Assembly (NCBI GenBank): GCA_026984045.1
Contig: JALSSV010000063.1
Span: 62,001 to 126,000, forward strand
Length of the DNA: 64,000 bases
Direction: 5' to 3'
From: Chromatiales bacterium
Lineage (GTDB): Bacteria; Pseudomonadota; Gammaproteobacteria; UBA6429; Thiohalophilaceae
Shown: positions 57,106-64,000 of the stretch, piece by piece
Numbering within the stretch: the stretch's first letter is position 1
How the letters are laid out: every line of letters begins with the position of its first letter
Made by a program: the position numbers and the translations under genes
Notes under the pieces: generated by a model
Seen by the model: only the letters and a program-made list of their open reading frames with translations
The model's database searches: none
Told to the model about the DNA's origin: nothing

Positions 57106-59082
57106 TCAGCCGAGCCGGGAGCGGTAAACGCCGGCATCGACGAAGATCCGGAACAGGTCGCCGTCCAGCTTGCCCTCATTCACTTCGTTGTCGAGGATGG
57201 CCAACGCCAGATCGGTGCTGATCCCCTCGCGGTAGGGACGATCCCCGGCCGTCAGGGCGTCGAAGATGTCGGCAATGGCCATGATCTTCGACTGCACGGG
57301 GATTTCCTCGGCGGAAAGCCCGAGCGGATAGCCGGTGCCGTCGAGCTTTTCGTGGTGGGCATGGGCGATTTCCGGGATCCGGGCCAGCGGCCGCGTCCAG
57401 GGAATCAGGCTCAGGAATTCGAAGGTGTGGCTCACGTGGGATTCGATCTCCCGCCGCTCCTCGGGGTTGAGGCTGCCGTGGGCGAAGCTGAGCACCGAGA
57501 ACTCGTAGTCGCCGATCAGGGGCAGGGATGCTCCATCCCGATCGGTGAAGCGGTATTCGCGGATGGCCTGCAGGCGACCGGTGTTCTTGTCGTAGTAGTA
57601 ATCGGGCTCGTTGACCTCGATGATGGTCTCGAGAAAGCGATCCAGCTTGCGGATCTCCTCCCGAACCTGCGCTTCCACTTTCTCCCGGTGACGGCGGAAT
57701 TCCGCCGGGCTCATGGTGCCGGCTTGCGAAAGATCGAGCAGATCGCGCCAGGCCTGGCGTTCCAAGCAGGCCTTGGCATACTGGAAACGCAGGCGCAGTT
57801 CACGCAGTTCGTAGGGATAGAGCTTCTTGGCCTTGGTCAGCACCCGTTCGCGCACGCCCACCTTGCCGAAGTCGTGCAGCAGGGCCGCATAGCGGATCTC
57901 CTGGATCTGCTCGCGGTCGAAACGCACCGCGCGCAGCGCCGGCAGATCGGCCCGATCCACGGCCATGGCCAGGCGTTCGGTGTAGTCGGCCACCCGGAAG
58001 GAATGGCCGGCGGTGGTGGGATCCCGCGCTTCGATGGCCTGCACCGAGGCCTTGACGAAGCCTTCGAACAGCCCCTCGATGTCCTCGTAGAGGCGGGCGT
58101 TCTTCATGGCGATGGCCACCTGGGCGGAGATGCCGGTGAGGATTTCCAGGTCCTCGCTGGAGAAGGCCTCCGGTCCCTGGCGGGTGTCCACCTGGATCAG
58201 CCCCAGCACTTCCTCGTCGTGCAGCAGGGGAGCACACATGACGCTGCGAATGGCCAGGTTCACCACCGAGTCCTGCGCCCCGTAATGGCGATCCTCCAGC
58301 GCATCCATCAGCAGCAGGGCATTGCCCTGCTCCACCACTTCCCGCACGATGGTCCGGGACAGGGCGTATTCGCCGGTCGCCAGTTCGCCCTCCCGGGAGC
58401 GGCGGACCAGGGTCCGGTAGCGTCCGGAACGGCGGTCGAGGGCCACCACGAAGACCCGCTCGGCACCGGAGAAGATTTCGAACAGCAGATCCGCGATGCG
58501 CCGGTACAGTTCCTGCCGATCGGTGATGGCCCCGAGTGCCACACTGACCTGCACGATGGCCTGCATGCGCTTGAGCAGGGCATCGTCGGCCGCGGCCTCT
58601 TCCTCCCGTGCGGCCCCGCGCAGGCGCTGCAGCAGGCGGGAGGCATCCACCACCATGCTCACGTCCGGCTGGAAATCCCGCTCGGAGACGATGGCCAGCC
58701 CCTCGCCGTCGCTGCCCGCGGCCAGATCGAAGTCGGCCATCTGGCCGGTGTCCGTCGCCTCCGGCACGCTGCGCAGGCGAAACACGGCCTGGGTGTTGCC
58801 GAAGAAGATTTCGTCGCTGTCGGCCAGCTCACGGGGCTGTCCCGGCCGCAGAAAGCGTCCGTGCATCAGGGTGCCGTTGGTGGAGCCGAGATCCTCGACG
58901 AACCAGCGCGCCCCGTCCCGGAAGAGGCGCACATGGCGGCGGCTGATCTCGGCATCTCCGAGACTCAGAAACCCCTCGCGCAGCCCGCTGCCGACCCGCG
59001 AAGAGCGCCCGATGACCAGTTCGTCAGCCAGCTTGACGCGGGTTCCCGAATCGGGCCCCCGTCTGATAATCAGTTCGGCCAA
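57106..59082 (-). CDS. FHA-GAF-HD-GYP signalling protein
   Basis: The 658-residue cytoplasmic protein has an FHA domain (about residues 1-105; VIGRSS, EISRRHVRLF, DLGSTNGT) that reads phosphothreonine, a GAF domain (about 180-335; CAPLLHDEEVLGLIQVDTRQ), and an HD-GYP domain: the metal pair H403-D404 (LLHDFGKVGV), H576-H577 and the GTGYP at 582-586 (HHEKLDGTGYPLG). HD-GYP enzymes hydrolyse c-di-GMP. A stretch of about 110 extra residues (about 420-530) separates HD from HH, so catalytic activity is not certain. It starts with TTG (59080-59082). It converges with the CDGSH gene and is divergent from the kinase cluster; placed between pel and pil genes it may lower c-di-GMP for PelD. Confidence 0.88.
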   Translation of the reverse strand: MAELIIRRGPDSGTRVKLADELVIGRSSRVGSGLREGFLSLGDAEISRRHVRLFRDGARWFVEDLGSTNGTLMHGRFLRPGQPRELADSDEIFFGNTQAVFRLRSVPEATDTGQMADFDLAAGSDGEGLAIVSERDFQPDVSMVVDASRLLQRLRGAAREEEAAADDALLKRMQAIVQVSVALGAITDRQELYRRIADLLFEIFSGAERVFVVALDRRSGRYRTLVRRSREGELATGEYALSRTIVREVVEQGNALLLMDALEDRHYGAQDSVVNLAIRSVMCAPLLHDEEVLGLIQVDTRQGPEAFSSEDLEILTGISAQVAIAMKNARLYEDIEGLFEGFVKASVQAIEARDPTTAGHSFRVADYTERLAMAVDRADLPALRAVRFDREQIQEIRYAALLHDFGKVGVRERVLTKAKKLYPYELRELRLRFQYAKACLERQAWRDLLDLSQAGTMSPAEFRRHREKVEAQVREEIRKLDRFLETIIEVNEPDYYYDKNTGRLQAIREYRFTDRDGASLPLIGDYEFSVLSFAHGSLNPEERREIESHVSHTFEFLSLIPWTRPLARIPEIAHAHHEKLDGTGYPLGLSAEEIPVQSKIMAIADIFDALTAGDRPYREGISTDLALAILDNEVNEGKLDGDLFRIFVDAGVYRSRLG

Positions 59083-59375: not shown

Positions 59376-59849
59376 ATGGAGAACCCGGATCTGAAGATTC
59401 CCAAGATCCGCAAGCAGGTCAATCTCTGGGTACACCCCGAAGGCCGGGTCGTCGGCTCGCTGTTCCTGCGCGAGCAGAGCGTCCACCATGCCGGCCCGGA
59501 ACGGCCCGATGAGGTGCTGAACCAGGACAGCCCCTTCGTCGTCCTGTATCGCGAGGATCCCGCCGAGCTGCGCTTCTACAATCGCCGCGCCATCGTGCGG
59601 GTGGAATATGCCGACGACGCCCTGCCGGAAAGTGCGCACCTGACCATCCTGCCCTGCCGGCTGGATCTGATGGATGGCAGCCGCCTGGAAGGGGAAATCC
59701 GCGAAATCCTGCCCGCCGACCGGGCCCGGCTGTTCGATTACCTGAACCGGCCCGACGTGCGTTTCCTGCGCCTGCATCTGCCGGAGGGAGGGATCTGCCT
59801 GGTCAACAAGGCCTACGTCATCCATGTCACCACGCCAGGCAATGGCTGA
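59376..59849 (+). CDS. Conserved hypothetical protein before the HEAT kinase
   Basis: The family is not recognised. The 157-residue product has no signal peptide or membrane segment. It is rich in beta-strand-like stretches (KQVNLWVHPEGRVVGSLFL, FVVLYREDPAELRFYNRRAI, LTILPCRLDLMDGSRLEGEI and GICLVNKAYVIHV), suggesting a small beta-barrel, with a charged loop LPADRARLFDYLNRPD between. It is 18 bp before the HEAT-kinase gene, in one transcript with it and the PilT-like genes, so a part in kinase or pilus control is likely by association. Confidence 0.75.
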   Translation: MENPDLKIPKIRKQVNLWVHPEGRVVGSLFLREQSVHHAGPERPDEVLNQDSPFVVLYREDPAELRFYNRRAIVRVEYADDALPESAHLTILPCRLDLMDGSRLEGEIREILPADRARLFDYLNRPDVRFLRLHLPEGGICLVNKAYVIHVTTPGNG

Positions 59850-59867: not shown

Positions 59868-62255
59868 ATGAGTCTGCTGGGTTCCTTCAAGATCAACAAA
59901 GCCATCGGGGTGCTGATCGGGGCCCAGCACGCCTCGCCCCAGGAACTCAGGGAAGCCATCGCCAAAATCAAGAGCACCGGCCGCAGCGCCATTCCCAAAC
60001 TGATCGAGGCGCTGGCCGACGCCCCCAACAACCCGCACATCGAGGGCCTGCTGATCCAGCTGCTGGACAACAAGACCCTGCCCGAATACATCGACGGCCT
60101 GGCCGACGAGGACAAGCGCATCGTCACCGGCGTGATGCGGGTACTGGCCAGGGCCCGTTCCTTCGACGCCAACCGGCTGTACGATCTGTTCGAGGATCCG
60201 GACATCCCCAAGGCGGCCCTGGTGCAGATCCTCCTGGCCCACAAGGACGAACTCAACGCGCGGACCCTGCTCGGCCTGCTCGAACGGGTCGACAAGGACG
60301 TGCGCCAAATGGTCTTCCGGGTGCTCGACCAGGTGGCCAAACCCGACATGATCCCGGATCTGATCCGCTACAGCCGCAGCAAGGATCCGGTGGTCCGCCT
60401 GCACGTGGCCCGCACCCTGTCGCGCTTCAGTACCGAGCCGGTGCGCGACGCCCTGCTCAACCTGCTCAAGGACAGCCACAAGGGCGTGCGCCAGATCGCC
60501 ATCGAGGGGCTCGGCCGGCTCCAGGTCAAGGTGCCCGCCCGGCCCATCGTCCAGCTCCTGCGCGATCCGGATCTCACCGTCCAGGCCAAGGCCATCGACA
60601 CCCTGATCAGCATCCGCGATCCGGAAACGGTCAAGTACCTCATTCCCATCCTCCAGGACGATTCCGAATACATCCGCCGCGCCGCGGTGGAAGTGCTCAA
60701 CGAGGTGGGCGATCCCCGCGCCATCAAGGATCTGCTCAACGCCATGCGCGATCAGGACTGGTGGGTGAAGGTGCGGGCCGCCGACGCCCTCGGCTCCATC
60801 GGTGGCCCCAAGGTGGTGGATGCCGTGATCGGCCTGATCAACGAGAAGGACGAGTTCCTGCGCCGCACCGCGGTGGAGATCCTCAACTCCATCAAGGACG
60901 AGCGGGCCGTCACCCATCTGATCGGCGCCCTCAAGGACAAGGACTGGTGGGTGCGCGAACGGGCCGCCGACGCCCTGGCCAAGATCGGCGACAAGCGGGC
61001 CGTGCCGGCGCTGGTGGAAATGCTGCGCGAACAGCCCGAATCGGCCAGCATCGCCATCAAGGCCCTGGCCGAGCTGGGCGACCCGGCGGCCATCGAACCG
61101 CTCATCGAAGTGCTCAACCACCCCGACGACGTGACCAAGAAGGAAGCCATGCGGGCCCTCCAGCAGCTCACCGACGAAGCCCACTACGAACAGGTCCAGG
61201 AAGCCATCCGCAAGGCCCTGGTGGGCGCCAAGCGCGACGTGGCCGACGTGGGCAACGCCACCATGAAGACCGTGGTGGCCCGCTTCGCCAGCGGCGGCGC
61301 GCCCGAACCGTCCTCGGGCGAACCCTCCGACGCCACCCGGGTCGCCAGCCAGCCGCCGCCTTCCGCCGAAGTGGCGGCCACGCCGCCCTCCGAGATCATC
61401 GTCGACGCCGACAACCTCAAGCCGGGCGACATCCTCGACGACCGCTACAAGGTGATCCGCACCGTGGGCAAGGGCGCCTTCGGCGTGGTGATGCTGGTCG
61501 AGGACACCATGGTCCAGGAACAGATCATCCTCAAGTTCCTCAATGCCCACATGGCCGCCGACGAGAGCGTGATCCAGCGCTTCGTGCACGAACTGCGCTT
61601 CACCCGGCGCATCACCCACCCCAACGTGATCCGGATCTACGACTTCATCACCATCGGCAAGTCCTACGCCATCTCCATGGAGTATTTCGAGAGCCACTCC
61701 CTGGCCCAGGAGATCCGCGCCAAGCGCACCAAGGATTTCGCCCGCAACCTGCGCCTGCTGATCGACATCTGCAAGGGCCTGTCGGTGGCCCATCACCTGA
61801 ACGTGGTGCATCGCGACATCAAGCCGGCCAACATCCTGGTCAACAAGGACGACCTGGTGAAACTGGTGGACTTCGGCCTCGCCGCGGCCGCCAGCCAGGG
61901 CGACGGCTCGCGAATCACCAAGAGCGGTATCCTGGTGGGCACCCCCACCTACATGGCGCCCGAGCAGGTCCGCGGCCGGGCCATCGACACCCGCACCGAC
62001 ATCTACAGCCTGGGGATCGTCATGTACGAGATGTTCACCGGCCGCCCGCCCTACAAGGAAAAGGATCACATGGCCACCCTGTTCAAGCACGTGGAAGGCA
62101 AGGCGCCCCCCGCCAGCGAGAAGAACCCGGCCATCGACGAAAAGCTCAATGCCATCATCATGCGCGCCATCCACGTGGACCCCGAAAAGCGCTACCAGAC
62201 CATCGACGAGCTGCAGAAGGATCTGGAAACCTACGTGCAGGAGGCCGCCGCCTGA
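59868..62255 (+). CDS. HEAT-repeat Ser/Thr protein kinase
   Basis: The 795-residue protein has an N-terminal array of HEAT or PBS-lyase-type repeats (about residues 20-460; for example DQDWWVKVRAADALGSIGGP and KDWWVRERAADALAKIGDKR), a low-complexity linker, and a eukaryote-like kinase domain (about 525-795). The kinase has the G-loop GKGAFGVV, K556 in IILKFL, HRDIKPANI with D650, D668-F-G and APEQVRG. No transmembrane helix is evident, unlike many bacterial kinases with sensor domains. It overlaps pilT by one base (TGATG), so kinase and pilus ATPase are co-expressed. HEAT arrays bind partners, here perhaps pilus ATPases. Confidence 0.92.
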   Translation: MSLLGSFKINKAIGVLIGAQHASPQELREAIAKIKSTGRSAIPKLIEALADAPNNPHIEGLLIQLLDNKTLPEYIDGLADEDKRIVTGVMRVLARARSFDANRLYDLFEDPDIPKAALVQILLAHKDELNARTLLGLLERVDKDVRQMVFRVLDQVAKPDMIPDLIRYSRSKDPVVRLHVARTLSRFSTEPVRDALLNLLKDSHKGVRQIAIEGLGRLQVKVPARPIVQLLRDPDLTVQAKAIDTLISIRDPETVKYLIPILQDDSEYIRRAAVEVLNEVGDPRAIKDLLNAMRDQDWWVKVRAADALGSIGGPKVVDAVIGLINEKDEFLRRTAVEILNSIKDERAVTHLIGALKDKDWWVRERAADALAKIGDKRAVPALVEMLREQPESASIAIKALAELGDPAAIEPLIEVLNHPDDVTKKEAMRALQQLTDEAHYEQVQEAIRKALVGAKRDVADVGNATMKTVVARFASGGAPEPSSGEPSDATRVASQPPPSAEVAATPPSEIIVDADNLKPGDILDDRYKVIRTVGKGAFGVVMLVEDTMVQEQIILKFLNAHMAADESVIQRFVHELRFTRRITHPNVIRIYDFITIGKSYAISMEYFESHSLAQEIRAKRTKDFARNLRLLIDICKGLSVAHHLNVVHRDIKPANILVNKDDLVKLVDFGLAAAASQGDGSRITKSGILVGTPTYMAPEQVRGRAIDTRTDIYSLGIVMYEMFTGRPPYKEKDHMATLFKHVEGKAPPASEKNPAIDEKLNAIIMRAIHVDPEKRYQTIDELQKDLETYVQEAAA

Positions 62256-63349
62256 TGGCCCGCCTCGATGCCTTTCTCAAGCTGGGCCGCGAGCAGGGCT
62301 GCTCCGACATCCACCTGGCAGTGGGCACCCCGCCCATGATCCGCCTGCATGGCGAGCTGCAGCCCATCAAGTACCGGGATCTCAGCCGCGACGAGCTGCA
62401 CGACCTGATCTACGAGATCCTCGAACCGGAACAGCAGACGGTCTTCGACCAGGGCGAGGATCTCGACATGTCCTACGTGGACGAGGACGGCGGACGTTAC
62501 CGGGTCAACCTGTTTCGCAAGATGACCGGCGTGGCCGGGGTGTTCCGGGTGATTCCGCCGAAGATCCCCACCATGGCCGAACTGGGGCTGCCCCCGGTGG
62601 TCGAGAAGATGCTGCATGCCAACCAGGGGCTGATCCTGGTCACCGGCGCCACCGGCACCGGCAAGACCACCACCCTGGCGGCGATGATCGACTGGCTCAA
62701 CCGCAACCGCCGCTACAACATCATCACCCTGGAAGATCCCATCGAGTTCATGCACGAGAGCAAGGAATCGCTGGTGGTGCAGCGCAGCGTGGGGGTGCAC
62801 GTGAAGAGCTTCAGCGAAGGGCTCCACGACGCCCTGCGCGAGGATCCGGACGTAATCCTGGTGGGCGAGCTGCGCGATCCCGAAACCATCGGCCTGGCCA
62901 TGACCGCGGCCGAAACCGGCCATCTGGTGCTGGGCACGCTGCACACCACCTCGGCGGTCAAGACCCTGGATCGGATCATCGACGCCATGCCCACCGAGCA
63001 GAAGCCGCTGGCCGCCACCTTCCTCGCCCAGCACCTGCAGGGCGTGATCAGCCAGAAGCTGGTGCGCACGGCCGACGGCCGCGGGCGCAGGGCGATCCTG
63101 GAAATCATGGTCAACACCCCCGGCATCGCCAACCTGATCCTCAACCGCAAGATCTTCCAGATCCCCGCCAGCCTCCAGACCGGCCGCGAGCTGGGCATGC
63201 AGCTCATGGATCAGGCCCTGCTGGAGGCCATCCAGCGCAAGGAAATCGACCCGGACGACGCCTACGTGCACGCCACCGACAAGAAACAGTTCCAGCGCTT
63301 CGTCACCAACCCGGAGCTGCTGCCCCAGGTCAACCTGGCGGTGAGCTGA
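62255..63349 (+). CDS. pilT: PilT-family type IV pilus retraction ATPase (first paralogue)
   Basis: The 364-residue hexameric ATPase powers pilus retraction. It shows the N-terminal GCSDIHLAVGTPPMIRLHGE, Walker A GATGTGKTTTLAAM, the Asp box TLEDPIEFMHESK, Walker B ILVGELRDPETI and the His box TGHLVLGTLHTTSA. The C terminus lacks the exact AIRNLIRE motif of canonical PilT and reads IANLILNRKIFQIPASLQTG, which is nearer to PilU-type retraction ATPases. A second paralogue follows 6 bp later. Confidence 0.9.
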   Translation: MARLDAFLKLGREQGCSDIHLAVGTPPMIRLHGELQPIKYRDLSRDELHDLIYEILEPEQQTVFDQGEDLDMSYVDEDGGRYRVNLFRKMTGVAGVFRVIPPKIPTMAELGLPPVVEKMLHANQGLILVTGATGTGKTTTLAAMIDWLNRNRRYNIITLEDPIEFMHESKESLVVQRSVGVHVKSFSEGLHDALREDPDVILVGELRDPETIGLAMTAAETGHLVLGTLHTTSAVKTLDRIIDAMPTEQKPLAATFLAQHLQGVISQKLVRTADGRGRRAILEIMVNTPGIANLILNRKIFQIPASLQTGRELGMQLMDQALLEAIQRKEIDPDDAYVHATDKKQFQRFVTNPELLPQVNLAVS

Positions 63350-63355
63350 GACGCC

Positions 63356-64000
63356 ATGGCCCGCATCAACGCCTTCCTGGAACTGGTGGTCAAGCAGAAG
63401 GGATCGGATCTGCATCTGATCTCGGGCAACCCCCCACGGCTGCGGCTCAACGGCGAGACCTTCCCGGTCAAGTACCGGGAACTGACCGCCGACGAGACGC
63501 GGGATCTGCTCTACGAGATCATGACACCCCTGCAGCGCCAGCACTTCGAGCAGGAAAACGGCGTGGACTTCGCCTACGAGGCCGAAGGGCTGGCCCGCTT
63601 CCGGGTCAACGTCTTCGAACACCTGCGGGGCATCGGCGCCGTGTTCCGGGTGATTCCCACCGAAGTGCAGAGCCTGCAGAAGCTGGGCCTGCCGCCGGTG
63701 CTCAAGAACTTCTGCCGCCAGCGCAAGGGCCTGATCCTGGTCACCGGGCCGACCGGCTCCGGCAAGTCCACCACCCTGGCGGCGATGATCGATTTCATCA
63801 ACCGCGAGCGCAAGGGCCACATCATCACCATCGAGGATCCGGTGGAGTTCCTGCACAAGAACCGCAACTGCCTCATCTCCCAGCGGGAGGTGGGCAGCCA
63901 TACGCCCTCCTTCGCCAGCGCCCTGCACTCGGCCCTGCGCGAGGATCCGGACGTGGTCCTGGTGGGCGAACTGCGGGATCTCGAAACCATTCACCTGGCC
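63356..64000 (+). CDS. PilT/PilU-family ATPase (second paralogue), 3' end outside window
   Basis: The 215 visible codons start MARINAFLELVVKQKGSDLH and carry LISGNPPRLRLNGE, Walker A GPTGSGKSTTLAAM, the Asp box TIEDPVEFLHKNR and Walker B VLVGELRDLETI. It resembles the first paralogue but differs at many positions (Walker A P-T-G-S, for example), so it is an old duplication rather than a recent copy. The window ends before the His box. PilT-PilU pairs are typical of twitching systems. Confidence 0.9.
   Translation, partial: MARINAFLELVVKQKGSDLHLISGNPPRLRLNGETFPVKYRELTADETRDLLYEIMTPLQRQHFEQENGVDFAYEAEGLARFRVNVFEHLRGIGAVFRVIPTEVQSLQKLGLPPVLKNFCRQRKGLILVTGPTGSGKSTTLAAMIDFINRERKGHIITIEDPVEFLHKNRNCLISQREVGSHTPSFASALHSALREDPDVVLVGELRDLETIHLA

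Follow-up and report, generated by a model that had tools for sequence, protein, structure and literature searches.

The question raised by this locus is whether a soluble protein kinase encoded directly upstream of two pilus-type motor ATPases acts on those motors and, if so, which motors of the cell they are. Several bacteria have more PilT-like motors than one pair, and, to our knowledge, how retraction motors are switched on and off is poorly understood. The window, that is, the whole stretch of Chromatiales DNA analyzed here (64,000 nucleotides), contains a block of forward-strand genes in the order UP157, HEAT-kinase, PT1, and PT2, an order conserved across loci. The first gene (59376..59849) encodes the 157-residue protein UP157, and the second (59868..62255, ATG start) the 795-residue HEAT-kinase. 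PT1 (62255..63349) is a 364-residue PilT/PilU-family ATPase with a conserved C-terminal tail, whose frame lies within a longer open frame starting at 60761 in the list of open reading frames. PT2 (63356..64000) is a second ATPase of this family and is interrupted by the window end, its full length being 373 residues (L005 5357-6478). Outside the window, 3′ of PT2, the same genome encodes a 223-residue FHA protein (L005 6529-7200; FHA domain, 6e-21). No phosphatase gene was recognized at the HEAT-kinase locus.

A soluble kinase carrying a HEAT solenoid

Pfam assigned HEAT_2 (PF13646) to five stretches of the HEAT-kinase (6.8e-62; 206.2 bits against a cut-off of 27.7) and Pkinase to residues 527-778, encoded at 61446..62201 on the forward strand (1.2e-52; 179.4 bits against a cut-off of 31.7). 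The AlphaFold model (mean pLDDT 84.1) is helical up to residue 474, and with a PF13646 score above the cut-off and a helical solenoid in the model, the protein is a HEAT-repeat protein. Between the solenoid and the kinase fold lies a low-confidence stretch (476-509), and residues at about these positions are predicted to form a disordered linker. K556, E575, the HRD motif at 648-650 (with D650), N655, and D668 are invariant across the 29 aligned kinase rows; judged by its sequence, with a Pkinase domain, catalytic Lys, HRD motif, and DFG-type Asp, the protein is a Hanks-type Ser/Thr kinase.

A scan of 19-residue hydropathy found no membrane segment in the HEAT-kinase (maximum, 1.23), and values above 1.6 were reached in only 5 of 53 homologues (highest, 1.96), in every case within the HEAT or kinase parts. 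The best PDB matches of the kinase domain are Hanks kinases of the PknB type, for example 6i2p (PknB with GarA; 31% identity). However, PknB-type kinases have membrane and PASTA parts, where the HEAT-kinase carries its solenoid instead, and the PASTA-kinase model NF033483 matched the kinase part only, with 276.1 bits against a cut-off of 450. Thus, the preliminary description of a soluble kinase with an N-terminal HEAT array of about 440 residues was correct, the array being slightly longer (helices to 474), as was its observation of a TGATG stop/start overlap with the downstream pilT-family gene, located at 62253..62257 on the forward strand.

The fusion of HEAT array and kinase was also considered as a possible assembly accident; this was rejected, since 17 of the 24 other genomes in this family encode near-full-length homologues, one of which is cut at residue 731. 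Partial homologues lie at contig ends in two more genomes (G003 and G010), and none was found in the remaining same-family genomes G002, G005, G013, G023, and G024.

PT1 and PT2 as a second motor pair

PT1 (431.4-431.6 bits) and PT2 (466.4 bits) both pass the cut-off of the PilT/PilU-family model TIGR01420 (319.1). Another adjacent pair of PilT-family genes is present in the same genome (C66:43948-46035), and its first gene ranks best against the PilT profile (511.9), followed by PT2 (466.4), the second gene of that pair (449.7), and PT1 (about 431.4). The start of the first gene of the C66 pair resembles the Pseudomonas aeruginosa chain 3jvu; the textbook-like PilT/PilU labels used here rest on score, adjacency, and this likeness, and the name PilU on position and score. 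In a tree of 56 rows, two of them ungrouped, 18 PT1, 18 PT2, nine PilT, and nine PilU sequences were each set off by a supported branch (support 100/100 and 99/96 for PT1 and PT2, 97/99 for PilT, and 100/100 for PilU). The tree took in 18 of 53 PT1 and 18 of 52 PT2 sequences; the poorly scoring PT2 of L132 (73.6 bits) was kept out. A PT1 profile separates the groups similarly, with all 53 PT1 sequences at 621.7 bits or more, PT2 at 465.8 or less, and the textbook-like PilT and PilU at 408 or less.

Measured against PilT and PilU of the same genomes, neither PT1 nor PT2 groups as an ortholog of canonical PilT or PilU. The identification of PT1 as the textbook-like pilT was therefore rejected, the best-scoring pair lying elsewhere in the genome and PT1 and PT2 falling into separate clades, and the kinase thus adjoins a second motor pair. 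Among 28 additional genomes (G177, G287, and 26 that carry both kinase and PT1), 26 gave a match of more than 490 bits, as is typical for textbook-like PilT, the exceptions being G109 and G295, in the latter of which the match is interrupted by a contig start. As for the architecture of the pair, the PilT/PilU motors of type IVa pili are likewise two adjacent ATPases of the family, but PT1 and PT2 each fall into a separate clade. Their group consensus sequences retain the regions that we take to be the Walker and His-box motifs. In several genomes, a third PilT-family gene also lies directly beside the textbook-like pilT-pilU genes (for example, G149:C8 and G110:C1).

Conservation and co-inheritance of the block

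PT1 lies directly 3′ of the kinase in 53 of 55 kinase loci. The two exceptions, L141 and L143, encode kinases of 27-29% identity, and were excluded from the junction and clade counts and used as a contrast for the HEAT region. The 53 junction loci are on 53 different contigs, and each gene was assumed to begin at the start codon closest to its aligned position. Of these loci, 26 show a kinase-PT1 overlap of 1 or 4 bases, and in 47 the two genes are at most 30 bases apart, overlaps included; UP157 and the kinase overlap in none of 43, and PT1 and PT2 in five of 52. (The PT2 gene of L112 was lost to an overlap filter in the neighbor survey, and is present in the junction survey.) Alignments covered 28 of 53 PT1, 29 of 53 kinases, 26 of 42 UP157, and 25 of 34 FHA copies. 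The preliminary description had read the junction as coupling to PilT at a fixed stoichiometry. A recurring, tight link to a pilT-family gene is indeed seen, but the C66 pair and the separate clades indicate a partner other than the textbook-like PilT. The fixed stoichiometry was not borne out: an overlap exists in just 26 of 53 loci, and G186 and G387 retain both the kinase and the PT1-PT2 pair but have them on separate contigs, each next to other genes.

Among 369 genomes of the same class, the kinase was detected in 50 (E 1e-90), PT1 in 45 (E 1e-150), and UP157 in 37 (E 1e-8), with the kinase present in all 45 PT1 genomes and all 37 UP157 genomes. The PT1 genomes span 24 families, and the Fisher test of co-occurrence ignores relatedness; the genome sets were matched via identifiers transferred by hand. 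The kinase occurs without PT1 in G177, G287, G322, G334, and G307. The kinase match ends close to a contig start in G322 (174 bases away) and G334 (54 bases away), and in G307 a run of N lies inside the kinase frame and a motor gene is absent from the stretch examined. G177 (L141) and G287 (L143) carry divergent HEAT-kinase homologues in PT1-less genomes, indicating that the kinase is able to exist without these motors; by eye, both kinase genes adjoin a ClpB-like gene and have no PilT neighbors.

The co-inheritance of kinase, PT1, and PT2 as a genomic module is well supported. That the pair is a mere marker of pili was considered and rejected, since PilT-family matches (1e-100) were found in 29 of 30 sampled kinase-negative genomes. 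In a phylum-wide draw the kinase was found in one of 398 genomes, namely its own, a rate that disagrees with the 50 of 369 in the class draw; because of this mismatch and the unclear make-up of the phylum draw, no claim is made of its absence outside the class.

A conserved patch in the HEAT array

Conservation in the kinase protein is concentrated in part of the HEAT array, with 55 of 160 columns at least 90% conserved in residues 221-380, versus 69 of 280 in residues 516-795. The patch at residues 262-370 (60651..60977, forward strand) contains two D-x-D-W-W copies spaced by 62 residues, within alternating RRxAxExxN and DxDWWVxxRxxDAL repeats. About 50 HEAT positions are near-invariant, and in a leave-one-out comparison at least 94% of them were kept by every PT1-linked kinase, including those of G186 and G387. 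The kinases of the PT1-less genomes G177 and G287 keep 36% and 44% of these positions, respectively; for the near-invariant positions of the kinase part, the figures are 91% and 95%. This decay suggests that the patch may be a docking surface lost together with its partner. However, HEAT identity is 20-21% in these two kinases versus at least 41% in the 12 other rows listed, and given this greater overall divergence the loss of the patch may also reflect general drift.

The FHA partner and second-messenger neighbors

Of 53 loci, 32 have an FHA homologue after PT2 (34 copies in all), with a motif E[PS]TMF directly after the FHA domain in 33 of the 34 copies, the divergent FHA protein of L118 being without it; in L112 and L136, two tandem copies lie 3′ of the motor genes. 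Across 25 aligned rows, E101, T103, M104, F105, and T113 in the linker and R27, S41, H44, and N63 in the FHA core are invariant. An FHA gene after PT2 was not found in the other 21 loci, three of which (L037, L126, and L139) are on contigs that stop inside PT2 or no more than 400 bases from it. The close FHA type (at least 312 bits) occurs in 17 of 369 same-class genomes, all 17 with kinase and PT1, and the weaker type (below 205 bits) is broadly distributed, the two together being found in 90 of the 369.

The GarA/OdhI phospho-switch likewise uses a small FHA protein whose conserved threonines lie outside its core, and GarA has an ETTS motif and binds itself according to the available part of PMC5448819. 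The threonines of the FHA partner, however, follow the FHA domain, whereas those of GarA and OdhI precede it, and the partner has a further C-terminal region. By analogy with GarA, T103 and T113 are likely kinase targets. In the same genome, a paralogous, weaker-type FHA protein clusters with a CHASE2-bearing kinase and a PP2C phosphatase (L146 1202-5746, C56), with FEST in its linker versus EPTM at the PT2 locus and no motor gene recognized among the neighbors listed. Since a related protein thus belongs to a generic kinase/PP2C/FHA cluster, the FHA partner may be under the control of a different kinase. The L146 cluster also encodes a small FHA-like protein that has an ETT motif close to its end.

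Five of the 21 loci in which the usual FHA gene was not found contain another FHA-pattern frame (L127, L135, L123, L128, and L132). Near the block, L127 and L135 encode proteins that combine FHA with a class III cyclase domain (Pfam), and L123 appears similar by eye. In the window, a gene on the reverse strand upstream of the block (57106..59082) encodes an FHA-GAF-HD protein with an HHEKLDGTGYP motif, which we take to be of the HD-GYP type. A counterpart in this position and orientation occurs in 13 of 55 loci (long matches, at least 500 bits). With FHA-cyclases near the block in a few lineages and FHA-GAF-HD genes upstream in some, cAMP or c-di-GMP may be linked to the module.

Proposed mechanism and alternatives

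The reading that we favor, with a probability of roughly 0.5, is that the module serves as a Ser/Thr-kinase/FHA switch dedicated to an auxiliary, retraction-type motor pair. Judging from the anatomy of the proteins, the HEAT arm would dock on the PT1/PT2 motors via the near-invariant patch (residues about 262-370), bringing the kinase domain within reach of these motors; the kinase would then phosphorylate T103 and T113 in the linker of the FHA partner, and perhaps also the motors. The FHA domain might bind phosphothreonine, its own or that of another protein, and such phospho-dependent binding could alter the timing or strength with which the auxiliary motors contribute to retraction. PilU reportedly functions only together with PilT (PMC6762196), and loss of PilU in P. 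aeruginosa raises cAMP (PMC12607626); as far as the accessible text of these papers goes, both points make a kinase-controlled auxiliary pair plausible. Because the kinase always accompanies the PT1 pair in the sample, the proposal supplies a specific partner along with candidates for the docking surface (262-370) and the phosphosites (T103/T113), and is directly testable.

The same patch may instead be an internal regulator, by which the HEAT array autoinhibits its own kinase and senses something else, with PT1 and PT2 as co-regulated neighbors without contact. The presence of HEAT array and kinase in one chain with a disordered linker between them, their separation from the motors in G186 and G387, and the kinases without PT1 in G177 and G287 would all fit this arrangement, but PT1 without the kinase was not found in 369 genomes, and it is the HEAT patch, not the kinase core, that differs in the kinases of the PT1-less genomes; autoinhibition thus appears rather unlikely. 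The direction of signaling might also be the reverse, with PT1 and PT2 sensing load or state and the kinase reporting it via FHA proteins to second-messenger enzymes. The FHA-class III cyclase proteins near the block in L127 and L135, the three further FHA-pattern frames in loci without the usual gene, the upstream FHA-GAF-HD genes, and the high cAMP of P. aeruginosa pilU mutants (PMC12607626, as available in part) are consistent with such reporting, which is nevertheless doubtful, as cyclase and HD neighbors occur in a minority of loci.

A related and similarly speculative proposal, for which we see a small chance, is that the HEAT-kinase would be a motor-mounted sensor, in which the HEAT array grips PT1/PT2 and retraction load or state is converted into threonine phosphorylation read by FHA proteins, some few of which are fused to a cyclase or an HD-type enzyme. 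If true, this would constitute a Ser/Thr-kinase route of surface sensing separate from Pil-Chp, the known histidine-kinase route. Finally, that the same genomes already hold textbook-like PilT and PilU could mean that PT1 and PT2 power a different, kinase-regulated type IV filament system, not the standard pilus. Yet no filament, pilin, or platform gene was recognized by eye among the neighbors listed for L005, six distant loci, and the split loci, and both motors pass the PilT/PilU cut-off, leaving this the least probable of the alternatives and very unlikely.

Relation to known motor control

Returning to the kinase/FHA switch, its motors may be likened, by description, to Neisseria PilT2, an extra PilT-family motor modulating retraction; the available parts of PMC6762196 and PMC12607626 report no kinase or FHA link for such paralogues. 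A review of assembly-motor control discusses histidine kinases and second messengers, with no mention of HEAT in its accessible portion (PMC11656802). The literature search, which covered its sources in part, found no published HEAT-kinase, or other Ser/Thr kinase, tied to PilT; the parts of the module are of known kinds, and the combination of a HEAT-kinase with a second motor pair was not found in that literature. The module suggests that pilus motors have an associated phosphorylation system that has received little notice. If the proposal is true, type IV pilus motors would join the machines under FHA-linked Ser/Thr kinase control, of which type VI secretion is an example.

UP157 and upstream genes

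A search with the fold of UP157 gave no match at E ≤0.001, the weak hits being Hfq/Sm-like barrels below the trusted level (best Z, 3.9), and DUF6812 scored 20.4 bits, under its cut-off of 27.1. The model of UP157 (pLDDT 92) comprises two small beta-barrels in tandem, and a role as an adaptor would be a guess. Close upstream of the block, the window contains genes for PelD and PelG (a pel polysaccharide locus), followed by an NlpC/P60 gene (50935-56717, forward strand), and, together with the FHA-GAF-HD gene, the pel locus gives the block c-di-GMP-flavored surroundings.
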